A stretch of 46,791 nucleotides of DNA from Hyphomicrobiaceae bacterium (GTDB lineage Bacteria > Pseudomonadota > Alphaproteobacteria > Rhizobiales > Hyphomicrobiaceae): positions 1 to 46,791 of the forward strand of contig JAMXLN010000321.1 in the NCBI GenBank assembly GCA_024281145.1, read 5' to 3'. Position 1 is the stretch's first letter. Each line of letters begins with the position of its first letter. The notes below the pieces were generated by a model, which did not search any database, was not told where the DNA came from, and saw only the letters and a program-made list of their open reading frames with translations. Below are positions 29,675 through 44,150 of this stretch, one piece after another. Made by a program: the position numbers and the translations under genes.

Positions 29675-30871
29675 ATGAAGCTCAGTCGCCGTCAAGCTTT
29701 GAAAGGGACCGCTGCGAGCGCTGCCACGCTGGCAACGGGTGTGTTCCGACCGGCCATTGCACAATCGGAACCCATCCGCATTGGCTATCTTCCGGCGCTC
29801 ACGGGTCCCAGCTCGTCGACGGGCATCGGCATCAACCGCGGCACCGAGCTTGCGGTGAAGGAAATAAACGCCGCCGGTGGCATCAAGGGGCGACAGATCG
29901 AGCTCATCGTCCGCGATACGCAGAGCGATCCGACCAAGGCGGTCAACGGCGCGACGGAGCTCACGCGCCGGCACAAGGTGCAGGTCATGTGGGGCCCGTT
30001 GAATTCGGGCGAAGCGCTGGCGGCGACCCCGCTGATCGCGCGCGATGGGGTACCCCAGGTTCACCCCTGTTGGGTCGATGCGCTGACCGACCCCAAGAAA
30101 TACCCGCTGGCCTTCCGCAATGCGCCCACCAATCAGCAAATCGGCGGCGCGGCCAACCACTACGTGGTGCATATTCTCAAGGCCAACAAGGTGGCCGTGG
30201 TCAGCGACACCACGGGCTACGGCACGGCCTCGCTCGATGCCTATGTGCCAATGCTCAAGAGCATGGGTGCGACGGTCGTCTATCAGAGCAGCGTCGAGGC
30301 CAACAATCCCGACGTCAAGCCCGAGCTCTTGCGCATGCAAGCGGCGGGCGCCGAGGCCATCATGCCCTGGAGCGTGAATGCTGGGTTCCTGTCGCGGCTC
30401 ATCAACACCCGCGCCGAGATGGAGTGGGACGTCCCGATCGTCGGCCAGACGACACTCGGCTCTGGTCAAACCAAGGCGCTGCTGAAGAAACCCGAGTACT
30501 GGGAGAAGGTCTACCCCAACAACTTCCGCAACTGTAGCTACGATGCGTCCGGACAGCTGCCGCCGCGCACGGCTGAATTCGTGGAGCGGATCCGCAAGGC
30601 CGGTATCGAGATGTCCGATACGCTCCTGTGGTGGATCGCCCTGGGCTACGACGGACCGCGCCTGATCGCCGACGCGATCCGGGAGGCTGGCAGCACGCCC
30701 GAGGAGATTGCCGGATACTGGAACAAGGTCAAGGGTTGGCCCGGCGTCTACGGCACGATCACGTGGACGCCCGAACTGCACGATGGCTTCCAGGGCAGCG
30801 AGGTCGTGATGGTGCAGGCCAATTCCCTGAAGGAGGGGGCCTTCGTCCTCGCGCCCGGCTATTCCGGCTAG
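29675..30871 (+). CDS. ABC transporter substrate-binding protein (branched-chain amino acid type), Tat-like signal
   Basis: MKLSRRQALKGTAASAATLATG; IRIGYLPALTGPSSSTGIGINRGTELAVKEINAAGGIKGRQIELIVRDTQSDPTKAV. Confidence 0.93.
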   Translation: MKLSRRQALKGTAASAATLATGVFRPAIAQSEPIRIGYLPALTGPSSSTGIGINRGTELAVKEINAAGGIKGRQIELIVRDTQSDPTKAVNGATELTRRHKVQVMWGPLNSGEALAATPLIARDGVPQVHPCWVDALTDPKKYPLAFRNAPTNQQIGGAANHYVVHILKANKVAVVSDTTGYGTASLDAYVPMLKSMGATVVYQSSVEANNPDVKPELLRMQAAGAEAIMPWSVNAGFLSRLINTRAEMEWDVPIVGQTTLGSGQTKALLKKPEYWEKVYPNNFRNCSYDASGQLPPRTAEFVERIRKAGIEMSDTLLWWIALGYDGPRLIADAIREAGSTPEEIAGYWNKVKGWPGVYGTITWTPELHDGFQGSEVVMVQANSLKEGAFVLAPGYSG

Positions 30872-30875
30872 CCCG

Positions 30876-31733
30876 ATGCTGGTGTCGATCGTCTCCTACG
30901 GCCTGGCGCTGGGAGCTGTCTATGCCCTGATCGGCATCACCTACAACGTCATGTTCGCCGCCTCGCGCGTGTTCAGCTTCACGGCGGGGATGACGGGCAT
31001 GCTGGGTGGGGTGCTGGGCGCGTTGTTTATCGACCGCCTGGGCATGCCGGTGATCGTGGGTTTCGTTGCCACGCTGGCAGCAGGGGCTGTGCTCGGCATC
31101 ATCACCGAAATCTTGACGGTACGGCCGGTGCTGAAGAGCCTGGATCAGCACCTTTATGTGCTCTCCACACTGGCATTCGCGCTCATGATCCAGCAACTCA
31201 CCGCCATCGAGTGGAGCACCGAGCCGCAGCCCTTCCCCCGCCTCTTGCCGATCGGCCCGGGGCTCTTTGATCAGCAGTTCTGGCTGCCGATGGTTGCCTG
31301 CGCGGCCACGATCGTGGGTCTTGAGTGGCTTTACCGTCGCACGCTTATCGGGCGTGCGTTCCTGGCCATCGCCGAGGACAATTACGCCGCCCGCGCGCTC
31401 GGCCTGCCGGAACAACGCCTGCGCATTGCCAGCTATGCCCTCGCGGGTGTGATCGGAACGTTGGCCGGTTTCACCGGGGCGGAGATGATGCTCGCCTATT
31501 TCGGCAACGGCCCGCTGTTGAATTTCTATGGGTTTGTACCGGTCGCGCTCGGCGGTATGGGCAGCAACCGGGGCGCCGTGGTGGGCGGGCTTGCGCTCGG
31601 CCTCTTCCAGCAGACGGCAAACTTCTTGGTGGGGGGCATCTTCGCCTCGGTCGCCGTGTTTGTGGTGTTCATCGTCGTGCTGCTGGCGCGGCCCGAGGGC
31701 TTCGCCGGCGCTGCCACGGCGCGGCGCGTATGA
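30876..31733 (+). CDS. Branched-chain amino acid-type ABC transporter permease (LivH family)
   Basis: GLALGAVYALIGITYNVMFAASRVFSFTAG; YAARALGLPEQRLRIASYALAGVIGTLAGF. Confidence 0.92.
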   Translation: MLVSIVSYGLALGAVYALIGITYNVMFAASRVFSFTAGMTGMLGGVLGALFIDRLGMPVIVGFVATLAAGAVLGIITEILTVRPVLKSLDQHLYVLSTLAFALMIQQLTAIEWSTEPQPFPRLLPIGPGLFDQQFWLPMVACAATIVGLEWLYRRTLIGRAFLAIAEDNYAARALGLPEQRLRIASYALAGVIGTLAGFTGAEMMLAYFGNGPLLNFYGFVPVALGGMGSNRGAVVGGLALGLFQQTANFLVGGIFASVAVFVVFIVVLLARPEGFAGAATARRV

Positions 31734-33526
31734 AGGACTTAGCGACATCGGCCCCGGTGGCTGCCACGCGCGGGCTCGCCAGGCTCGAAGCCTTGGCCCC
31801 CGTCCTCGTGCTTCTCATCGCCGGGGTCTGCCTGCCGCTGTTTGGCGATTCCTACCTTGGGGTGATCGGCACGCGCGCGTGCATCTATTGGGTGCTCGTA
31901 TCCGGGCTCAATCTCGTGGTGGGCTTCGCCGGCCAAATCGCCATTGGCTGGGTGGCATTGCTGACGCTCGGGGCCTATGTCACGAGCGTGCTGACGGCGG
32001 GGGCGGTGGCGCCCGAGCTTTCCCCCTATCTGGCCCTGGCGATCGCCGGGCTCTTCGGCGCCATCTTCGGAGTGATCGTCGGTCTTCCGGCGCTGCGCCT
32101 GCGCACCTTCTATTTCGCGATGACAACGCTCGGCTTTGCCACCATCGTCACGCAGGTGGCGCTGGCCTGGAAGAGCGTGACCGGCGGCGGGGTCGGCGTG
32201 CCCGGTCCGATTTTCCCTTGGCCATTCGCTTCGCCCTGGGGCTTTTACTTCTTTTGCCTCGGCCTTGCCCTCCTGTGCACCTGGATGACGGCGAACATCG
32301 CGGCGAGCCGCTTCGGCCGGGCGCTGGTGGCGATCCGCGACGCTGAGGTCGCGGCCGAGGCGGTGGGCATCTCCAAGCCGGGGTTGCTCGTCAAGGTGTT
32401 CCTGTTCAGCGGCGCCGTGGCGGGAGTTGCGGGTGGCCTCTTTGCGTCGCTGCAGTCCTACATCACACCCGACGCCTTTACGTTCGACTTATCGATCTTG
32501 TTCTTCATCGCCATCCTGATCGGGGGGCGCGGCTCGATCCTGGGGCCTCTGCTGGGCACCATCATTCTGACAGCGCTTCCTGAATTTGCCGCGCCGCTGG
32601 TAGCGTGGTCCACTTTCCTCTATGCCGTGCTTTTGCTGATCATCGTGCTCGCTATGCCGGGCGGCATTGCCGAGGTGCTCGACTTCAAGAACCGGCGCCC
32701 GCTTGAGCGGCATCGCGAAATCCGCCCGCGTCCCGAACTGCTGGGGACCCTGAGCAACCCCGACACCTCCCCCGCTGTGCTCACGCTCAAGGGCGTGTCG
32801 CTGAGCTTTGGCGGCGTGCGCGCGATCGACGATCTCACCCTGGAGATCCGGGCCGGCGAGGTGCACGGCCTAATTGGTCCCAACGGCAGCGGTAAGACCA
32901 CCACGCTCAACGTGATCTCCGGGTACTATGCACCACAGCAGGGCCAGGTGTTCTTGCGCGGCAAGCCATTGCGGCCCCGCGCGCCACACACGCGTGCCGC
33001 GCAAGGCATCGCACGTACGTTCCAAACCCCTCGGCTGATTGGCGCCGCCTCCGTGCTCGAGAACGTGATGATCGGGGGCAGCAAGGACGGCCGCAGCACT
33101 TTCGTGGAATCGCTCGTGGCGCTGTCTCGACATCGTCGCGACGAGGCCATGCTGGCACAAGCGGCGATGACGGCGCTGTCGGTGGTGGGTTTGGAGCAGC
33201 TCGCTTTTGCGCGCTCGGACCGATTGCAACACGGCGAGTTGCGGTTCGTGGAGATTGCGCGCGCGTTGATGCTGCGCCCGTCCTTTCTGTTGCTCGACGA
33301 ACCTGCAGCGGGATTGTCCGTCGAAGAAATCAAGCGCCTCGGCGACCTCATCCTCACCATCAGCCGGCAGGGAACGGGCGTGCTCCTGGTCGAGCACCAT
33401 GCGGATTTGATCTTCGATATCTGCGACCGCGTTACCGTGCTGAATCTGGGCAAGGTGCTGGCATCGGGAACGCCGGCCGAGATTCGTGCGCATCGCGAGG
33501 TCGTCAATGCCTACCTTGGAGGCTAG
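31730..33526 (+). CDS. Fused ABC transporter permease (LivM family) and ATP-binding protein (LivG family)
   Basis: N-terminal LivM (NLVVGFAGQIAIGWVALLTLGAY; AVGISKPGLLVKVFLFSGAVAGVAGGLFA) joined to LivG (LIGPNGSGKTTTLNVISGYY; GELRFVEIARALMLRPSFLLLDEPAAGLS). ATG overlaps the LivH stop. Confidence 0.92.
   Translation: MKDLATSAPVAATRGLARLEALAPVLVLLIAGVCLPLFGDSYLGVIGTRACIYWVLVSGLNLVVGFAGQIAIGWVALLTLGAYVTSVLTAGAVAPELSPYLALAIAGLFGAIFGVIVGLPALRLRTFYFAMTTLGFATIVTQVALAWKSVTGGGVGVPGPIFPWPFASPWGFYFFCLGLALLCTWMTANIAASRFGRALVAIRDAEVAAEAVGISKPGLLVKVFLFSGAVAGVAGGLFASLQSYITPDAFTFDLSILFFIAILIGGRGSILGPLLGTIILTALPEFAAPLVAWSTFLYAVLLLIIVLAMPGGIAEVLDFKNRRPLERHREIRPRPELLGTLSNPDTSPAVLTLKGVSLSFGGVRAIDDLTLEIRAGEVHGLIGPNGSGKTTTLNVISGYYAPQQGQVFLRGKPLRPRAPHTRAAQGIARTFQTPRLIGAASVLENVMIGGSKDGRSTFVESLVALSRHRRDEAMLAQAAMTALSVVGLEQLAFARSDRLQHGELRFVEIARALMLRPSFLLLDEPAAGLSVEEIKRLGDLILTISRQGTGVLLVEHHADLIFDICDRVTVLNLGKVLASGTPAEIRAHREVVNAYLGG
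33492..33516. repeat. Left copy of an imperfect 25-bp direct repeat (24/25) in the livG 3' end
   Basis: ATCGCGAGGTCGTCAATGCCTACCT versus ATCGCGAGGTCCTCAATGCCTACCT at 43362-43386. Confidence 0.85.
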
Positions 33527-34184
33527 CAAGGGATGGCGGTCGCGTTGGCGGTACGCCGTCCGTGAACGGTAAAAGCCAACAGGTCGGCGTGACCCGATGC
33601 TTGGAGCGTCGATGTCATGGGGGTGTGTGCATCGATAAGCCCAAACTGGTGCTGAATCTCGGATCAGCGCTTCCCGTCGCTGCGTACAAATTAAGCGATC
33701 GTGGGCAGTGGGTGACGCCGGCGGGTTTACCAGCAGCGAGCCTGAGCTAGCCGCGAACGGTCCAGGCTGGCACCTCCCGTTCGCCGTTGCTGTATTTTGC
33801 CAGCAATTTGAGGGGATCGATGCAAGCTCTAGATTTGATGGGCCTGCATTGCAGGGGTAGCCGTCGGTAGCAGCCGAAGATCGACTAAGAATTTTGATCG
33901 CCTCAAGACGATCGTAGCGCGCTTTGCTGGCTAAGTGCTTCCCTCTAAAAAACGTAAGGGTTCCTGCTGATTACACCCCTCCCATCGTGGGTGTACCGAT
34001 CAACGCTCGGAAAGGGCTCAACATGCACACCAATTCTCCGGCACCGAGGCGATTGGCAATGGAAAATTGCTGCAGTTGCCCGCTCGGTCTCGCCTCACGA
34101 CACGCGTGCCCATCTTTCTTGCCCTGATCTTGATCAGTGCCGACCGCATCCTCAACGCGCTTGTTTCGAGGAGGGAGCGCCCGC

Positions 34185-34388
34185 TTGAAGTTCTTCGAGA
34201 TCGACCTGTTCGGGGTCTACGTTGCGCCGATATCAGTGCTGATGGTGGCGGCGTGGTTTGTGACAGTGGCATCGCGCCGGGTCGCGAGCCGCTTCGGTCT
34301 GTTTCGACACGTGTGGCATCCGGCGCTGTTTGTATTCTCAGTTTACATGATCGTGCTGTCATCGATGGTCCTCGTCATCGCCCATTGA
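34185..34388 (+). CDS. DUF1656 domain-containing small membrane protein
   Basis: LKFFEIDLFGVYVAPISVLMVAAWFVTVASRRVASRFGLFRHVWHPALFVFSVYMIVLSSMVLV; GAGGAGGGAG upstream of a TTG start. Confidence 0.8.
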   Translation: MKFFEIDLFGVYVAPISVLMVAAWFVTVASRRVASRFGLFRHVWHPALFVFSVYMIVLSSMVLVIAH

Positions 34389-34395
34389 TACCCCC

Positions 34396-35538
34396 ATGTC
34401 GGATACCGTCACCAGAGCAGAGCTCGGCAAAAATGCCGACGTTCGTGCCATGCCGCTCGCGGAGCCGACTGCTCGCAAGGCGGACAGATCGCGGATTCCA
34501 GCGATCCCGGTATTGATTACGCTCGCCACCGCCTCACTAGCAGCAGCGGCCGGTTGGGCCATGTGGAACGCGTACATGGGCGCACCTTGGACTCGCGATG
34601 GCACGGTGCGCGCCTATGTCGTTACCATGGCACCGGAGGTTGAAGGACGCATCGTCGAACTGGCGGTCGTCGATAACCAATTGACCCATAAGGGCGACCT
34701 GCTGATAGTGATCGATCCAACCAACTACAAGATCGCACTCGAGCTGTCGGAAGCGGCAGTGCGTCAGGCCCGCGCCAACGCGCAGAACATTGCGGGCCAA
34801 ATCCCGGTGCAAGAGGCGCAAGTCGGTGCCAACAAGGCCCAAGTGGAGCAAGAGCAGGCGGCCCTCACATTCGCGGTACAGCAGGCGGCTCGGTACCAGG
34901 ATCTTGCACAGCGCGAGGCGGGAACCATACAAATGGAGCAGCAAACCGCGTCGACGCTCGGCCAGACTCAGGCGGCGCTCAAGAATGCACAGGCGACCCT
35001 TGCCCTCGCCGAGCGCCAAATCACGTCTCTCAAGGCTCAACTCAGCAGTGCAGAGGCGAGCATTGACCAGGCCGTAGCGCAGCGTCATCAGGCACAAGTA
35101 AATCTGGAACGCACCAAAATCCGTTCTCCCGTGAATGGTTGGGTCACCAACCTCACAGTTCAGCTAGGTGACTATGCGACCGTGGGGAGGAGTGTGATCT
35201 CCCTCGTCGATGCTGATTCCTTTTGGGTGGATGCCTATTTCGAGGAAACGCAACTTGGCTCCATTCATGAAGGTGATCCAGCCAAGATGAAACTGTTGGG
35301 ATACAGCCAGATCGTTGAAGGCGAGGTCAGCGGCATTGCACGGGGCATCAATATCCCCAATGCACAACCAAACGACCAAGGGCTAGCGAATGTCAGTCCG
35401 ATTTTCACGTGGGTCCGGCTCGCCCAGCGCGTGCCGGTGCGGATTCGGATTCATAAATTGCCGGACGGCGTTCGCCTGATCGCCGGCGCGACCGCGACGG
35501 TGCAGATCGACGCAATTCCTCGCCAGGCCCCACATTAA
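34396..35538 (+). CDS. HlyD family efflux transporter periplasmic adaptor subunit
   Basis: N-terminal TM, APEVEGRIVELAVVDNQLTHKGDLLIVIDPTNYKIAL, coiled-coil, RTKIRSPVNGWVTNLTVQLGDYATVG. Confidence 0.92.
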   Translation: MSDTVTRAELGKNADVRAMPLAEPTARKADRSRIPAIPVLITLATASLAAAAGWAMWNAYMGAPWTRDGTVRAYVVTMAPEVEGRIVELAVVDNQLTHKGDLLIVIDPTNYKIALELSEAAVRQARANAQNIAGQIPVQEAQVGANKAQVEQEQAALTFAVQQAARYQDLAQREAGTIQMEQQTASTLGQTQAALKNAQATLALAERQITSLKAQLSSAEASIDQAVAQRHQAQVNLERTKIRSPVNGWVTNLTVQLGDYATVGRSVISLVDADSFWVDAYFEETQLGSIHEGDPAKMKLLGYSQIVEGEVSGIARGINIPNAQPNDQGLANVSPIFTWVRLAQRVPVRIRIHKLPDGVRLIAGATATVQIDAIPRQAPH

Positions 35539-36333
35539 GCAAGCTAGGTTGCGCTGGCGGTTTGAACGTTGAGAGGCCGCGCGATGTCGTGAACGGAGGT
35601 CCTCATAGATGGGATGCGGGGAGCGAACGACTAAAAGAGATATGCAGCCAACGTCAGGGCCCATATTCGGCGCGCGGTATGCGCGCTTCTACACATTATG
35701 GCGGGTGGCGAAGATTGCCATGCCGAGGGCTCGGAACATGTAGAAGTTATTGGCCTGGCCGGGCACGCATGTTCCTCGTGGCACAACCCAAGCCAGCATT
35801 GGCGACAAAACGCGACGCCACTGGAGTTGCGCGCAAGAGATAGGGCACCGGGCCACGCGAAGAACCAGGCGTCGCGATCGATCTATCAGTGTTCCAGCAT
35901 TCTCTACCGAGCTATCCTGCTTCTGAGACAGGGTTTATCCTTATGTGGCTCCGTGCTGCCACCTGCTAACCTACCTCAATGCGCAGTTGGCATTTGCCAA
36001 AAACCGACGCCGTCTATCAGCTGACGGAGAGAATGTCCGGCCGATTGCCCGATCACCCGGTGGCCCCCATCCGGTGAGGCTGAGGCACGCCAGCGCCACC
36101 CACATGCAAAATAGGTTCGCTCATCAGTTAACTCGGACCGGACCTGCGTCGGACCTCGGGTGTTCCTTATGGAGGTTAGTCCTGCGCCGCATAGAATTCA
36201 TGAAGGAGCCGACCATGTCCTAGGTCACCTTCGAAAACCAATAGCCCAGGACTGGCTACGCGTTCGAGGGACGCGAGCGAAACTTGCCTGACGGCTCTGG
36301 CGGTTGACCGAACCTGCCACAACAAGGTGCCAC

Positions 36334-37077
36334 ATGCGTGTCGGCTTGTTCATTCCTTGCTATATCGATGCCTTTTTTCCGGAGGTCGGGATCGCTACGC
36401 TGGAACTACTGGAAAGGTTCGGTCACCAAGTCCTCTACCCGTGTGACCAGACTTGTTGCGGCCAGCCGATGGCCAACAGCGGCTTCAACGCGGACTCCGC
36501 CGACACCGAGGCGCTGTTCGTGCGAAATTTCTCCGGCTTTGATTACGTCGTGGCGCCGTCCGGCAGCTGCGTCCAGCACGTCCGCGCCAATTTCGACGCG
36601 GTGGAACAAACGCCGGAGGTCAAGGACGTCCGCGGTCGCATCTATGAGCTCGTCGAGTTTCTGCACGACATCCAGAAGGCAGAAGCGTTTCCGTGGGCGC
36701 GGTTTCCGCATCGGGTCGGGTTGCACAACAGCTGCGGTACCCTGCGGCGCCTTAAGCACGCCACGCCCTCCGAGCTGCATGAGCCATTCTTTTCGAAACC
36801 AATGGACCTGCTGTCGAAGGTCGACGCCATTCAATTCGTCAATCCGGCGCGCCCCGACGAGTGCTGCGGCTTCGGCGGCACCTTCTCGGTATTTGAGGAA
36901 GTCGTCTCGACGAAGATGGGCTTTGACAAGGTGACCGATCACGCCCGCGCCGGTGCCGAGTACATCGTGTCCGCCGATAGCTCTTGCCTGATGCACCAGC
37001 AGGGCTGCGCCGAACGCATTGGCGTGCCGATCAAGTTCATTCATATCGCTCAGATCCTGAACGGAGCTGGCGCATGA
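36334..37077 (+). CDS. lutA: (Fe-S)-binding protein, lactate utilization LutA (CCG domains)
   Basis: MRVGLFIPCYIDAFFPEVG, YPCDQTCCGQPMANSGF, ECCGFGGTFSVFEEVVS. Confidence 0.9.
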   Translation: MRVGLFIPCYIDAFFPEVGIATLELLERFGHQVLYPCDQTCCGQPMANSGFNADSADTEALFVRNFSGFDYVVAPSGSCVQHVRANFDAVEQTPEVKDVRGRIYELVEFLHDIQKAEAFPWARFPHRVGLHNSCGTLRRLKHATPSELHEPFFSKPMDLLSKVDAIQFVNPARPDECCGFGGTFSVFEEVVSTKMGFDKVTDHARAGAEYIVSADSSCLMHQQGCAERIGVPIKFIHIAQILNGAGA

Positions 37078-38642
37078 GCCCGCAATCCAAACCCTCGGAC
37101 CACACTGGCTTGCTACATCCTGGACTCTTGGCTCCCGACGATCGCGACGCCATTTACCGCGACGGCCAGCGCCTCGATCATGCCGAGGGAACCTCCAGGC
37201 CGCTGCACGCGCAGCCAGAGCCTCAGCCGCGCGGCGCCAAGGTGTTTGGCAATCGACCAATTGACCAGGCAGAAGCAGCCGCCCGCTTCATTGCCGCGCC
37301 CGAACACGAGAAGATGCATGACGAGCGTCTTTGGGATCTGCGGCAAAAGCGCGATCGCGAAATGCATGCCATTCCCGAGTGGGAAGAACTTCGCTCGCTT
37401 GCCTCCGCCATCAAAGAACACACGCTCACCCATCTCGACGAGTATCTCGAAGCGTTTGAGGCAAATGCGCACTCCAACGGCGTCCATGTCCATTGGGCGC
37501 GAGACGCTGCCGAGCATAACCGGATCGTGCACGGCATCCTACAAGATCACGGCGCCAAATCGCTCATCAAGAGCAAGTCGATGCTGACCGAGGAATGCGG
37601 TTTTCGGGATTACATGGCTTCGGTCGGCATCGACGTTATTGAGACCGATCTCGGTGAGCGCATCCAGCAGCTCGACAACGAGGATCCGAGCCATGTGGTT
37701 GTTCCGGCCGTACACAAGCTCAGAACCGATGTCGCGCAAGTGTTTGCTAAGACCATCGGCACCGATCCCAACAACAGCGACGTGCACTACCTCGCCGAAG
37801 CCCAGCGCGAAGCGAACCGGCCCTTGGTCCTCACCGCCGACGCCGGCATGACCGGCTGCAACTTTGCTGTCGCCGAGACCGGCGGCGTCATCGTCTGCAC
37901 CAATGAGGGCAATGCCGACCTGTCGGCCAACGTGCCGAAGCTGCACATCGCCTCAATTGGCATCGAGAAGACCATCCCGCGGCTCGAGCATCTGGCCATC
38001 TTCGTGCGCCTGCTATCGCGCAGCGCGCTGGGATCGCCGATGACGCAGTACACTTCGCATTTTCGCGGACCGCGCGCTGGCGGCGAGATGCACTTCGTGC
38101 TCGTCGACAACGGTCGCTCCGCACGTCTCGGCATGGCCGAGTTCTGGACCTCGCTGAAATGCATCCGCTGTGGTGCCTGCATGAACACCTGCCCGGTTTA
38201 CCGGCGCAGCGGTGGCCTCAGCTACGGCGCTACCTATTCCGGCCCCATTGGCCTCATCATCGATCCGACCTTCAATGCGCACAAATATAGCAATTTACCC
38301 TTTGCTTCGACGCTCAACGGCAGCTGCACGAATGTCTGCCCGGTCAAGATCAATATCCACGAGCAGATCTACGCCTGGCGGCGCGAGCTGGTGAAGCGGC
38401 ACGAGGTCCCGTTCGCCAAGAAGCTCGCGATGAAGGCAGCCGGCGAACTGTTGTCACGACCGTCAGCTTATCGCGCCGCCATCGCCGCAGCCGACGTGGC
38501 GCTCGCCCATTTGCCACGCTTTGCCATCTACAACGGGCTCAACGCTTGGGGCAAACATCGTGAGGTGCCCCATCCGCCCAAGCAAACATTTCATAGCTGG
38601 TACAAAGCCAACCGCGGAGGCAAAGATGACCAGCCGCGATGA
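37074..38642 (+). CDS. lutB: LutB/LldF family L-lactate oxidation iron-sulfur protein
   Basis: CIRCGACMNTCPVYRRSGG and CTNVCPVKINIHEQIYAWR ferredoxin motifs; TGCNFAVAETGGVIVCTNEGNADL; ATGA overlap with lutA. Confidence 0.93.
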   Translation: MSPQSKPSDHTGLLHPGLLAPDDRDAIYRDGQRLDHAEGTSRPLHAQPEPQPRGAKVFGNRPIDQAEAAARFIAAPEHEKMHDERLWDLRQKRDREMHAIPEWEELRSLASAIKEHTLTHLDEYLEAFEANAHSNGVHVHWARDAAEHNRIVHGILQDHGAKSLIKSKSMLTEECGFRDYMASVGIDVIETDLGERIQQLDNEDPSHVVVPAVHKLRTDVAQVFAKTIGTDPNNSDVHYLAEAQREANRPLVLTADAGMTGCNFAVAETGGVIVCTNEGNADLSANVPKLHIASIGIEKTIPRLEHLAIFVRLLSRSALGSPMTQYTSHFRGPRAGGEMHFVLVDNGRSARLGMAEFWTSLKCIRCGACMNTCPVYRRSGGLSYGATYSGPIGLIIDPTFNAHKYSNLPFASTLNGSCTNVCPVKINIHEQIYAWRRELVKRHEVPFAKKLAMKAAGELLSRPSAYRAAIAAADVALAHLPRFAIYNGLNAWGKHREVPHPPKQTFHSWYKANRGGKDDQPR

Positions 38643-39237
38643 CATCCTCGCATCGATCCGCGCAAACCGGCCAAAGGTGGACCGACCACTACCCCCTGTC
38701 CCACTGTTCGATGACCACCCACCGGCCTCGCTTCTCGCGGCCTTCAAGGAGAACCTTGAACGCATGGGCGGCATCTTCCTCGATCTGCCGGGGGCCGGCG
38801 ACCAGCTGGAGCCGGTTCGGGCGAAGATTGCGAAGGCCAAGGTCGTTTGCTCAACGGTGGCGGAAGTCCCAGGCAACCGCGACATTGCCGCAGCCCGCGC
38901 GCCGCAAGACCTGGCCGACGTCGATTTCGCGCTGGTGCGTGCCGCCTTCGGCATCGCCGAGACAGGATCAGTCCTGCTCCATGATAGCGAGCTCGGCGTC
39001 AATGCCCTCGCTTATCTGGCACAACATCTCATCGTTCTGCTCGACCCATCCGACATCGTCGTCAATCTCCATCACGCATATCGCAGGTCGGAGTTCCAAC
39101 ACGGCCATTACGCCGCTTTTCATACTGGCCCATCGGCCACGGCCGATATCGAGGGTGTTCTCATCCACGGTGCCCAGGGTGTTCGGTCGCTTTCCGTACT
39201 GCCCCTGGCAAGGGCGGCCCAGCCGCTAGGGGGCTGA
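38626..39237 (+). CDS. lutC: LUD-domain lactate utilization protein C
   Basis: MTSRDDILASIRANRP...FALVRAAFGIAETGSVLLHDSELGVNALAYLAQHLIVLLDPSDIV; overlaps lutB. Confidence 0.9.
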   Translation: MTSRDDILASIRANRPKVDRPLPPVPLFDDHPPASLLAAFKENLERMGGIFLDLPGAGDQLEPVRAKIAKAKVVCSTVAEVPGNRDIAAARAPQDLADVDFALVRAAFGIAETGSVLLHDSELGVNALAYLAQHLIVLLDPSDIVVNLHHAYRRSEFQHGHYAAFHTGPSATADIEGVLIHGAQGVRSLSVLPLARAAQPLGG

Positions 39238-39272
39238 TCGTCAACCTGGCGTCGGCGCGGCGAGTTTGCTCG

Positions 39273-41360
39273 ATGACGGACGGGGTCGCTGCTCAGGGCT
39301 GGTCTGGCGCGAAGCGGATGCTAAGTCCACTGAGCGCGGCTTTACGAAATGGCCTGAGCAGCGCCGGCCCACCCCTGCTGTTTGGCTTGCGGCTGTGGGC
39401 TTCGGTCTGCCTCGCGCTCTTCGTCGCGTTCTGGCTCGAGTTGGACAATCCTTTTTGGGCAGGCACCACAGCGGCGATTGTCTGTCAGCCGCGGCTCGGG
39501 GCCTCGCTACGAAAGGGCTGGTTCCGCATGATCGGCACGCTGATCGGCGCCACAATGATCGTGGTGCTGACCGCGTGCTTTCCGCAGGATCGCGTAGCCT
39601 TCCTCGGGTTGCTTGCGGCGTGGGGGGGTGTTTGCGCGTTCGCCGCTACCCTGCTGCGCAACTTTGCCTCTTATGCGGCGGGGCTTGCCGGTTTGACCGC
39701 AGCCATCATCGCCGCCGATACGCTGGGGGCGACCGGAGGCGCCAGTACGGAGGTCTTCATGCTGGCGGTCACGCGCACCAGCGAGATCTCCATCGGCATC
39801 GTGTGTGCCGGCGTCGTTCTTGCTGGGACCGATTTCGGCGGCGCCCAGCGGCAGCTTGCGACGTCCTTTGCTGCTTTGGCAGCCGAGACAACAGGTCGTT
39901 TTGCCGGCATGTTGGCGCTGGCGGGGCCGCAAATGCCGGACACGCGATCTGTGCGTCGCGAGCTCGTCAAGCGCACCATCGCGCTCGACCCCACAATCGA
40001 CATGGCGATCGGCGAATCCAGCCAATTGCGCTACCACCTGCCGATACTGCAGACAGCCGTCCACGGTCTGTTCGAGGCGCTTGCGGCTTGGCGCAGTGTT
40101 GCAACACATCTGAGGCGATTGCCGCAGAACATAGCTCGCGGGGAGGCAGAAACCGTCCTGCCTAACTTTCCGGATGCATTGCGATCGCCGCCACAGTCGG
40201 GGCCACCGATACGCTGGATGGCTGATCCCATAGGCCTGCGTTACCTATGTGAAGGGGCCATAGGGAACCTCCAAGCCCTGTCTGCCCGCACGCCATCGCT
40301 GCGGTTACTCGCCGACGAGACCGCTAAAGTCCTGGTCGGTATTTTGCATGTGCTCGACGCACTAGCCCTGCTCGTTGACGCGCCTGGTCAACCTCTTCCT
40401 GGACATCGCGGCTTCCGGCTCAGTGTACCCGATTGGCTGCCTGCCTATGTCAATGCGGCGCGGGCGTTTATCACGATCGGCGCGGTCGAACTCCTTTGGA
40501 TCGCGACCGCATGGCCAAACGGTGCGCTCGCCATTGCCTTCAGCACAATCGTGGTCGTGCTACTATCACCGAGAGGCGATCAGGCCTACGCCGGCGCTCT
40601 GATGTTCATGCTTGGCACCGCCGTCGCTATCGCGGGCGCGGCGACCATTAAGTTTGCCGTGCTGCCGGGGCTTGCGACGTTCCCGGCTTTTTGCATTGCC
40701 ATCGGTCTTTACCTCGTACCGGTCGGCCTTGGCATAGCTCAAAGCCGGCAGCTAGGGATGCTGGCCTTCTTTACCGCAATGGGGGTTAACTTTGTCCCTG
40801 TCCTCGCACCCACTAACCTGATGAACTACGACACGGCGCAATTTTACAACCTCGCGCTGGCAATCTTGGTCGGCAGCGGGAGCGCTGTACTTTCATTTCG
40901 GCTGTTTCCCCCTCTTTCACCGGCCTTGCGGACCCGCCGGCTGCTCGCCCTCACTTTGCGCGATCTCCGCCGCGTTGCGATCGGTGCCGTGTCATGGACG
41001 TCCGATGACTGGGACGGCTGTGTGTACAGTCGGCTGGCGGTAATGCCAGATGAGGCCGAGCCACTGCAGCGTGCGCAGCTTCTCGCGGCCCTCTCGGTGG
41101 GCAGTCAAATATTGCAACTTCGCCGCGCCGCAGGCCTGCTTGCTCTTGGTCCGGAGCTTGATCCTGCGCTTGTCGCGCTGGCGCATGGGAACAGCGCTAT
41201 TGCTAGCAGATGGCTTCGCCGCCTCGACCAGCATCTCGTTTCTCGGTCCGACCCGCAGGAACGAGAGCCTCACTCGCTGCGGATGCGCGCTGGTATTCTG
41301 GCTATTTCAGAGGCGCTTGCGCGCCATGCTGTCTATTTTGATGGCGGGGATCGCACATAG
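39273..41360 (+). CDS. FUSC family protein (aromatic acid exporter/AaeB-like membrane component)
   Basis: LRLWASVCLALFVAFWLELDNPFWAGTTAAIVCQPRLGASLRKGWFRMIGTLIGA, repeated TM blocks, long 695-aa ORF. Confidence 0.92.
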   Translation: MTDGVAAQGWSGAKRMLSPLSAALRNGLSSAGPPLLFGLRLWASVCLALFVAFWLELDNPFWAGTTAAIVCQPRLGASLRKGWFRMIGTLIGATMIVVLTACFPQDRVAFLGLLAAWGGVCAFAATLLRNFASYAAGLAGLTAAIIAADTLGATGGASTEVFMLAVTRTSEISIGIVCAGVVLAGTDFGGAQRQLATSFAALAAETTGRFAGMLALAGPQMPDTRSVRRELVKRTIALDPTIDMAIGESSQLRYHLPILQTAVHGLFEALAAWRSVATHLRRLPQNIARGEAETVLPNFPDALRSPPQSGPPIRWMADPIGLRYLCEGAIGNLQALSARTPSLRLLADETAKVLVGILHVLDALALLVDAPGQPLPGHRGFRLSVPDWLPAYVNAARAFITIGAVELLWIATAWPNGALAIAFSTIVVVLLSPRGDQAYAGALMFMLGTAVAIAGAATIKFAVLPGLATFPAFCIAIGLYLVPVGLGIAQSRQLGMLAFFTAMGVNFVPVLAPTNLMNYDTAQFYNLALAILVGSGSAVLSFRLFPPLSPALRTRRLLALTLRDLRRVAIGAVSWTSDDWDGCVYSRLAVMPDEAEPLQRAQLLAALSVGSQILQLRRAAGLLALGPELDPALVALAHGNSAIASRWLRRLDQHLVSRSDPQEREPHSLRMRAGILAISEALARHAVYFDGGDRT

Positions 41361-41742
41361 GGTTTAACGAGGTGGGGAAAGGCACTCCATCGCGAGCACA
41401 ACCCGTGTTGCGCGTTATTTCAACAAAGACGACAAGCGGCCGCTTTGCTGCGACCTTGAGGACAGGGCGTTTGATTTTGCAATTCGATCGGTTCGAGATG
41501 CTGGCGGCTCGCACCCCGTCCAGCTATGCGCGCGGATGCTGTCGTCAGAACCTTGTGCTCGACGCCTAGGCTGCCTGGCTGAAGCGCTGCGCCGGTGGGC
41601 TCGCGGCGGGTCTAGCAGCGCGATGACAAGAATTGGATGGCCTGAGGACCCTAAGTTGAACTCACTACTCACGACCGAGGTGGGTGTCCGACCAAGCCTC
41701 ATGCCAAACAGCAACCATCAAGGCGCGCTACACGCCGCAGCC

Positions 41743-41766
41743 CATGTTGGCACACATGTTGACACA
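41743..41766. repeat. 12-bp tandem duplication CATGTTGGCACA/CATGTTGACACA
   Basis: Direct reading, 11/12 identity. Confidence 0.7.
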
Positions 41767-41835
41767 CGGTGCTAATGAAGACTCCGGACACGTACGGATA
41801 ATCCAAGGGCGTAACCGGTACGGCCCGACGGTGTA

Positions 41836-41955
41836 TCAGCTCTTCTTAATCTCGACACCCGGGGCTTTGAACACAGTATTTTGAGTGCTATCCCAATAAA
41901 GATAGCCCAAGACAATTACGGCTACGAGCAGAGCTCCGATCATCAATCCGCGCAT
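41836..41955 (-). CDS. Small single-TM protein (39 aa)
   Basis: MRGLMIGALLVAVIVLGYLYWDSTQNTVFKAPGVEIKKS* preceded by GGAGGCTATC; N-terminal TM. Not in the ORF track. Confidence 0.65.
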   Translation of the reverse strand: MRGLMIGALLVAVIVLGYLYWDSTQNTVFKAPGVEIKKS

Positions 41956-42227
41956 GATAGCCTCCTTTGTGCCTGCGTACTAAACGCCAGCGGTAAGGCT
42001 TTTGTTGCCTTGGGCGCGTATGTCGCGGCACAGCAAGTTCGATAGCAGTAGGACATTGCGTGTCTGCGATCACGCCATCGCTGCTTCTGATTGTTGTTAC
42101 TTTATCCGATCCAAGCTCACACGAAGGAACGAATACGAACGAATACAGGCTGCGACACACGTCCTCTAAATCCACCAATGCGGAACCAACGGAGCAACAT
42201 CTCCGTTACGCCCACAGCCGCTGAGAG

Positions 42228-42440
42228 TTGGTGAGTATCGTGGGCGATCTGGATAACGCAATACGGCGCATCGAGCTTCGCGCCGAGCAGCTGATCATTC
42301 AACTTCGCGCGATGGAGCGAGATGCCCCTGGCGCGGAGCAATTGCGGTCAGTCCTTCTCGTGATGCTGCATCGCCTCGTCGCCCTGAAATGCGAGCGAGA
42401 GCGGCGCGAGCATGACCTAACCCTTGATTGTGCTAGCTGA
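42228..42440 (+). CDS. Small hypothetical protein (about 70 aa, charged helical)
   Basis: VSIVGDLDNAIRRIELRAEQLIIQLRAMERDAPGAEQLRSVLLVMLHRLVALKCERERREHDLTLDCAS; helical composition is plausible, non-ATG start. Confidence 0.4.
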   Translation: MVSIVGDLDNAIRRIELRAEQLIIQLRAMERDAPGAEQLRSVLLVMLHRLVALKCERERREHDLTLDCAS

Positions 42441-42506
42441 GCAACGTTGGGAATCGCGGACGTTGCTGCTCGCTGCGTTATTGGCAAGGCAGTTCGGAGA
42501 AGAGGT

Positions 42507-42680
42507 ATGGGAAACTTACTGCACTACGCCATCGTCTTCCTCGTCGTGGCGCTCATCGCCGCCGCCATTGGGTTTGGCGGCGTTGCCGGCGTTGCCATGG
42601 AAGGCGCGAGAATCCTCTTCTGGGTCTTCATCGTCCTATTCGTGGTTTCGCTCGTCGCGAACTACGCGCGACGGACCTGA
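42507..42680 (+). CDS. DUF1328 domain-containing small membrane protein
   Basis: [57 protein letters not shown]. Confidence 0.88.
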
Positions 42681-43361
42681 GACGGACCTGACCTGATCCC
42701 AGAGGGATCTAATCTTAAAGGGAGCGGAAGTCAGCGTCGCTCAAGGCTGGCGCGGGCTTCCGGTCCCGTGGGTTCGGCAGAGTACGGAACGTCTCTTCCC
42801 TGGATAGACGTCTGCCGTGACCAAGTCTCTGCCATGATCAAGTCCAGGGCTGGTGAGGTACCGGAAGCGATGGCCGACCATTTTTTTTTGTCGCGCCGCC
42901 AATGCCTTCAGCTCGCGGTCCGGCGTTTAGAGATCAACCCGCTTCACAGGGGCAGCAAGCGCCAGCTGGAGCTGCGTGTGCCTCGTTTCCATTGCTGGAG
43001 ATCTAAACGCCGCGCCTCCGTAAGGCGTCGCAGCTTCGCACGATCGCCGTGACGTTGTCGCGCGTAGATGGGCCCGAATGAGCGCGTGAGAATCGAGCGA
43101 CGCCGGCATGTCGCGGCGTGAGATCCTGTGCTCGATCAAGCGCCACGCTTTTGTTCGGGAACTGCCGCCGGTGGGCTTCCGCGCCACCGCCCCGACGAAA
43201 TTGCCCGTTGCTACGTCCCGTCGCGCCGATCACTGCCGCTAGAATGACGCCTCACATGTTCGGCATGGGTGTGCTACTCCCGGTTGCGGAATTGGGCAAT
43301 CAAGCCCCAGGTCAGTATCGAAACCCCCAGAGACCTAGATAACATGGGCACACCGTTGGAA

Positions 43362-43386
43362 ATCGCGAGGTCCTCAATGCCTACCT
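43362..43386. repeat. Right copy of the 25-bp direct repeat, in a livG C-terminal remnant overlapping livF
   Basis: Reads ...NREVLNAYLGA* (stop 43394-43396) versus ...HREVVNAYLGG* at the end of livG. Confidence 0.85.
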
Positions 43387-44150
43387 CGGCGCGTGAACCC
43401 CTGCTCGAGATCAGCGACCTCGCTGCCGGCTACGGTAAAATCGGCGTGCTCAACGGCATCGACCTGACGGTTGGAGCGGGTGAGGTGGTGGCCCTGCTTG
43501 GGCCTAACGGTGCGGGCAAGACGACCCTGCTCCGAGCCATCTCCGGCCTGCTCCCCTGGTCGGGGCGCGTTCGCTTCGCCGGTAAGGAGCTGGCCGGGGC
43601 CAATCCGCGCGACACGGTGCGGGCTGGGCTCGTGCACGTCATCGAGGGGCACCGCGTCTTCACGCAGCTTACGGTCTTCGACAATTTGCTGCTGGCCGGC
43701 TACGGGTTGCCGCGTCGACGGCTCATGCCTCAAGTGGAGGAGGCGCTCGCCTTCTTTCCGGAGATCGCCGCCAAGCGCAACGACGGGGCGGTGACGCTGT
43801 CGGGCGGCCAGCAGCAGATGCTGGCTGTCGCACAGGGCCTGGTGCGCCGTCCGCGCCTCTTGATGCTCGATGAGCCATCGGCTGGGCTCTCGCCCGTGCT
43901 CGTGGACCGCGTCCTCGCGGCCGCCGGACAACTGCGCGATGCCGGAACAGCCGTGTTGTTGGTGGAGCAGCTGATCGAGAAGGCGCTCCTCCTCGCCGAT
44001 AGGGTCTACGCCTTGGCGCGCGGCTCGATCGTGCTGGAGGCTGCTGGCAACGAGCCCGACCTGCCGAACCGGCTGGAGCGGGCGTACTTTGGTCAGGTCC
44101 TGACGGGTGAAGCCTCGCCAAAGGCTCGGCCAGCCGTGCCTCCCACCTGA
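43377..44150 (+). CDS. ABC transporter ATP-binding protein (LivF family)
   Basis: LLEISDLAAGYGKIGVLNGIDLTVGAGEVVALLGPNGAGKTTLLRAISGLLPWSG; LSGGQQQMLAVAQGLVRRPRLLMLDEPSAGLSPVLV. Confidence 0.93.
   Translation: MPTSAREPLLEISDLAAGYGKIGVLNGIDLTVGAGEVVALLGPNGAGKTTLLRAISGLLPWSGRVRFAGKELAGANPRDTVRAGLVHVIEGHRVFTQLTVFDNLLLAGYGLPRRRLMPQVEEALAFFPEIAAKRNDGAVTLSGGQQQMLAVAQGLVRRPRLLMLDEPSAGLSPVLVDRVLAAAGQLRDAGTAVLLVEQLIEKALLLADRVYALARGSIVLEAAGNEPDLPNRLERAYFGQVLTGEASPKARPAVPPT

Follow-up and report, generated by a model that had tools for sequence, protein, structure and literature searches.

A CIME is an att-flanked remnant of an integrative element that has no recombination genes. Elements that carry an integrase use the 3' ends of protein-coding genes such as guaA, rplL and rpmG as integration sites, leaving repeats of 12 to 54 bp (PMC4701971), and genomic islands restore the gene that they have entered (PMC12884075 and PMC4383910). 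We have compared with these systems a locus of a Hyphomicrobiaceae bacterium (GCA_024281145.1, contig JAMXLN010000321.1, positions 1 to 46,791, the whole stretch being referred to as the window), where a 9.87-kb acquired segment has entered at the overlap between the last codons of livG and the start of livF.

The insert is bounded by a direct repeat of 28 nt with 26 identical positions, whose copies lie 9,870 bp apart from start to start and share a longest exact block of 13 nt (Table 1). The original prediction had placed the repeat at 33492-33516 and 43362-43386 with one mismatch, coordinates that are correct, with the repeat extending to 28 nt. The left copy (ATCGCGAGGTCGTCAATGCCTACCTTGG) is the end of the livM-livG fusion (...HREVVNAYLGG*), in which livG stops with LGG* at 33526. 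The right copy (ATCGCGAGGTCCTCAATGCCTACCTCGG) reads ...NREVLNAYLGA*, has a 20-nt overlap with livF from its ATG at 43377, and carries the ribosome-binding site (GAGGT) and start codon of that gene. The duplicated 28 nt keeps both the livG C terminus and the livF ribosome-binding site and start, and both genes are intact. An insert of 10 kb can thus be accommodated where two operon genes overlap, with both proteins preserved, since the stop of the first gene and the ribosome-binding site and start codon of the second are all contained in the duplicated block. A sigma-70 scan found no promoter upstream of livF, a kind of scan that means little in this lineage. livM and livG form a single reading frame free of internal stops in the window and also in the five relatives checked, so the fusion goes far back in this kind of transporter.

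Table 1. Coordinates of the insert, its flanking repeats and its neighboring genes in the window
Feature	Coordinates	Strand	Remarks
livM-livG fusion gene, left neighbor	31733-33526	+	Last codons inside left repeat; fusion also in relatives
Left repeat, attL-like	33492-33519	+	Outer half ancestral, inner half foreign
13-nt exact block TCAATGCCTACCT, putative crossover place	33504-33516	+	Mismatch polarity
Left insert end, no recognizable gene (~0.63 kb)	33527-34154		
Likely FUSC 3' scrap just before DUF1656	34155-34184	+	20/30 nt to G663, 18/30 to Bradyrhizobium, collinear diagonal
DUF1656 (AaeX-like) small membrane protein	34185-34388	+	Pfam PF07869, E=2e-18
HlyD-family periplasmic adaptor (AaeA/EmrA-like)	34396-35538	+	
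lutA, Fe-S cysteine-rich protein	36334-37077	+	85-87% aa to G663 and Bradyrhizobium plasmid
lutB, LUD/4Fe-4S protein	37074-38642	+	82-85% aa to G663 and Bradyrhizobium plasmid
lutC, LUD protein	38626-39216	+	78% aa to Bradyrhizobium plasmid LutC
FUSC (AaeB-like) transporter	39273-41360	+	PF04632, E=2e-117
Right insert end (~2 kb), no recognizable gene except DUF1328, no integrase relic	41361-43361		
DUF1328 small membrane protein	42507-42680	+	
Right repeat, attR-like, displaced original livG end	43362-43389	+	Holds livF ribosome-binding site and start codon
livF, right neighbor, intact	43377-44150	+	

The unoccupied form of this junction is widespread. A search with LivF returned relatives at 67-80% identity, and through this search and the site pattern we found 56 loci in which livG (at least 61% amino acid identity) is directly followed by livF with no insert. 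These belong to about 51 genomes, a number that leaves out loci fetched twice and in which some species may be counted from two collections. Nearly all of them show the 20-nt overlap, which bears out the proposal that the right copy looks like an ancestral junction and that relatives should have contiguous livMG-livF. Two genomes of the same family (G019 and G041) have the junction GAGGTCGTCAATGCCTACCTCGGCGCGTGA, the sequence obtained by taking the first half of the left copy in the window and the second half of the right copy. There is one copy of the site per empty-site genome and two in this genome, which is the only one with two copies at the livG/livF junction among the approximately 600 distinct genomes scanned with the site pattern. 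The second copy is thus more than a chance match, and conservation of the LivG C terminus cannot account for it, given that the relatives carry a single copy each. The suggestion that other islands might end at the same repeat found no counterpart, as no second filled livG/livF site was detected in these ~600 genomes, nor any viral contig bearing the site pattern.

In two Reyranella-like genomes livG and livF are separated by a spacer and livF has a new start, the spacer being ~0.2 kb long with inverted-repeat-like DNA in the first (L223, G810) and ~0.1 kb long in the second (L220, G828). The former was considered as a filled site and rejected, since its spacer has no second repeat copy. There are thus other ways of opening the livG/livF overlap. 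Six genomes of the same genus have no close livF (best, 47% identity), yet both flanks of the operon (29675-44150) match the genus; the liv operon itself is therefore patchy and may have been gained or lost as a block.

The surroundings of the operon are native to the host genus, with proB 84-88% identical to that of a genome of the same genus (G006) and the region to the left of the liv operon showing 78-79% DNA identity to it. The assembly is a draft of 388 contigs, in which an artefact joining two genomes might be imagined. However, the 13-nt longest shared exact block is below the k-mer sizes commonly used in assembly, false joins would have to have arisen twice and independently at one homologous point, and both flanks match the same genus, all of which makes such an artefact highly improbable, as the original prediction had argued from the short exact block.

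The first mismatch (33503/43373) is G in the left copy and C in the right one, and G is present in 53 of the 53 empty-site sequences (a few of which come from the same genome as duplicate loci). The second (33517/43387) is T in the left copy and C in the right one, with C in 49 of the 53. As the empty-site bases match the left copy at 33503 and the right copy at 43387, the outer half of both copies is ancestral and the inner half foreign. This polarity fits a crossover of two similar, nonidentical sites within TCAATGCCTACCT (33504-33516), and adds to the support for an attP × attB type of recombination. A plain target-site duplication therefore does not fit. Transposition would account for a direct repeat flanking the insert, but 28 nt exceeds the 2-13 bp of DDE elements (PMC4701971), the insert has neither terminal inverted repeats nor a transposase, and the mismatches point to a crossover between different sites, so that we give this explanation hardly any credence. 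The incoming site stays in the livG frame up to the stop (CTT GGA GGC TAG), where the similarity to livG ends, and its LGG* end resembles the livG ends of some relatives (L042 and L043).

The ends of the insert were also searched for other traces of recombination. No arm-type repeats common to both ends were found. An inverted repeat in the core of the right copy (CGAGGT-N11-ACCTCG) was discarded as evidence of an integrase site, since it is not significant and 3% of the 28-mers in the window are as good. Nor did the ends contain further livG sequence that was convincing above shuffled controls; marginal and noncollinear scores were obtained with 2 of the 14 livG sequences. This result bears on another explanation, in which livG-livF was partly duplicated and the additional livG was then interrupted by the insertion and decayed, leaving just its final codons, under selection as the livF start region. 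The right copy is indeed kept exactly where livF needs it, but apart from those marginal scores no livG remnant above the controls lies upstream of it and more steps are needed, so we consider this course of events very unlikely.

All of the recognizable insert genes (DUF1656, HlyD, lutA, lutB, lutC, FUSC and DUF1328) are on the plus strand, in the same direction as the operon. LutABC would carry out L-lactate oxidation by means of iron-sulfur proteins, as these families do. The open reading frame listed as lutC at 38639-39229 is in the wrong frame, and the intact gene is the one in Table 1. DUF1656, HlyD and FUSC are similar to AaeXAB, an efflux pump for aromatic carboxylic acids, a putative function, although the NCBIfam models were matched below their equivalog cutoffs. 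The right end contains two small possible open reading frames with no family match, at 41836-41979 (minus strand) and 42225-42440 (plus strand), the former of which would code for a short peptide that looks membrane-like and the latter for a charged peptide of 71 residues. As the original prediction had noticed, there is no integrase; Pfam and PHROGs identified neither integrase, excisionase or phage genes nor relics of them in the insert, and no tRNA or Rfam match was found in it. Elsewhere in this genome there are five Phage_integrase matches.

The lower GC content that had been noticed by eye is real, at 60.3% in the insert versus 65.6% in the rest of the window, and the shift at the repeats is also seen in GC3, which is lower inside for most genes (66-79% in insert genes and 79-84% in flanking genes). 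The shift does not extend to GC-corrected tetranucleotide usage, in which the insert is no outlier. LutB is ~39-44% identical to homologues in a sample of the host family and order, whereas its identity to a gene of the conjugative Bradyrhizobium sp. Ash2021 plasmid NZ_CP100605 reaches 85%. The lutABC genes as a whole have 79% DNA identity to this plasmid, where HlyD-DUF1656-FUSC are close by. In a genome of the same order (G663), lutAB at 82-85% identity precede FUSC-DUF1656-HlyD. The efflux proteins of the insert are for the most part only 55-67% identical to their counterparts on the plasmid or in G663, and no FUSC match was found in six genomes of the same genus. The right end gave one weak DNA match to plasmids, in the DUF1328 region. 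These comparisons show that the cargo is foreign and related to rhizobial plasmid genes. On the Bradyrhizobium plasmid the neighbors of these genes are malic enzyme, fumarase, 2-hydroxyacid dehydrogenase and cytochrome bd, which suggests a role of the cargo in organic-acid use and export.

With regard to REARRANGEMENT, the closest relatives of the cargo (G663 and the Bradyrhizobium plasmid) have the order lutABC ... FUSC-DUF1656-HlyD, with FUSC and DUF1656 overlapping, versus DUF1656-HlyD ... lutABC-FUSC in the insert. The 30 nt before DUF1656 resemble the FUSC 3' end of both relatives on the expected diagonal, each resemblance having a frequency of ~4e-5 among window positions; it is absent with two more distant relatives. 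Because of the different gene order and this likely scrap, the insert is taken to be a reworked fragment of a lutABC/FUSC-DUF1656-HlyD cluster. A circular permutation via a circular intermediate is suggested, as it would give the order of the insert, and the scrap together with the complete FUSC would fit equally well the truncation of a cluster with two FUSC genes.

We consider that the insert is an att-flanked island that arrived by site-specific integration and whose integrase was lost or never carried, with a probability of roughly 0.68. The 28-nt chromosomal site (attB) would have recombined with an almost identical site of the incoming DNA (attP), which itself would have borne a livG-like 3' end through the stop (NREVLNAYLGG*). 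A crossover inside the 13-nt block would supply livG with a new, equivalent C terminus at the left junction, and the right junction would retain the displaced original end of livG, that is, the ribosome-binding site and start codon of livF. The most likely agent would be a site-specific tyrosine-type integrase on a circular element. We infer this integrase, the circular form and the loss of the integrase gene, or else its action in trans, either of which would leave an att-flanked islet. Excision of the insert would be expected to give the circle junction GGAAATCGCGAGGTCCTCAATGCCTACCTTGGAGGCTAG.

The main rival is homology-assisted capture, in which linear or plasmid DNA with a short livG-like end entered through ~28 nt of similarity with no dedicated integrase. 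It agrees with the insert having no integrase, with the single occurrence among the genomes scanned, with a cargo order that is rearranged and truncated compared to relatives, and with an incoming site that resembles a piece of the livG gene. Nevertheless, 28 nt with 2 mismatches and an exact block of 13 nt are little for homologous recombination, the insert ends hold no further livG sequence, and the similarity reaches no further than the livG stop codon, which is also the case in the attP of gene-restoring islands; we regard this capture as possible but unlikely. In favoring an att-flanked island with site-specific integration we retain most of the original prediction, which saw the livG 3' end as an attachment site and the insert as a possibly decayed island. 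Those of its proposed tests that were run all favored it. Its insertion, repeat and foreign cargo are borne out, while a dedicated integrase can only be inferred and recurrent use of the site was not found in the ~600 genomes.

A bolder version, which we think rather doubtful, is that the conserved livG/livF overlap is the target of a so far undescribed family of integrative elements, and that the insert is a nonautonomous member with a cluster that was rearranged, and possibly circularly permuted, during its entry. If true, two reading frames as well as a ribosome-binding site would constrain the site, and a single crossover would restore both genes. Likewise, if a site-specific recombinase was involved, the overlap would be a new integration address, one that many genomes possess, Reyranella-like ones and others. 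The locus also documents a transfer of lactate-oxidation and efflux cargo, related to rhizobial plasmids, into an alphaproteobacterial genome.

Among known systems, DDE transposons have terminal inverted repeats and a short target duplication, both of which the insert lacks. The clusters of the Bradyrhizobium sp. Ash2021 plasmid (NZ_CP100605) and G663 contain the same genes in a different order. Like a CIME, the insert has att-like sites at both ends and only cargo, with no recombination genes, but no parent element with the same att site was found in the ~600 genomes or in viral contigs. It works like an integrated island, and we describe it as an integrase-less islet rather than filing it as an island. 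The islands, ICEs and IMEs inserted by tyrosine recombinases into the 3' ends of protein-coding genes (PMC4701971) share with it an empty site in relatives, a repeat containing the 3' end of the gene, the restoration of that end and displacement of the original one, and a foreign cargo, and differ from it in their integrase gene or relic and in the repeated use of their site. They also differ in the target, which here is the overlap of two genes, with a repeat that holds the start of the next gene as well. The kind of event is thus an ordinary one, and it is the address, the livG/livF overlap, that is new and unusual.
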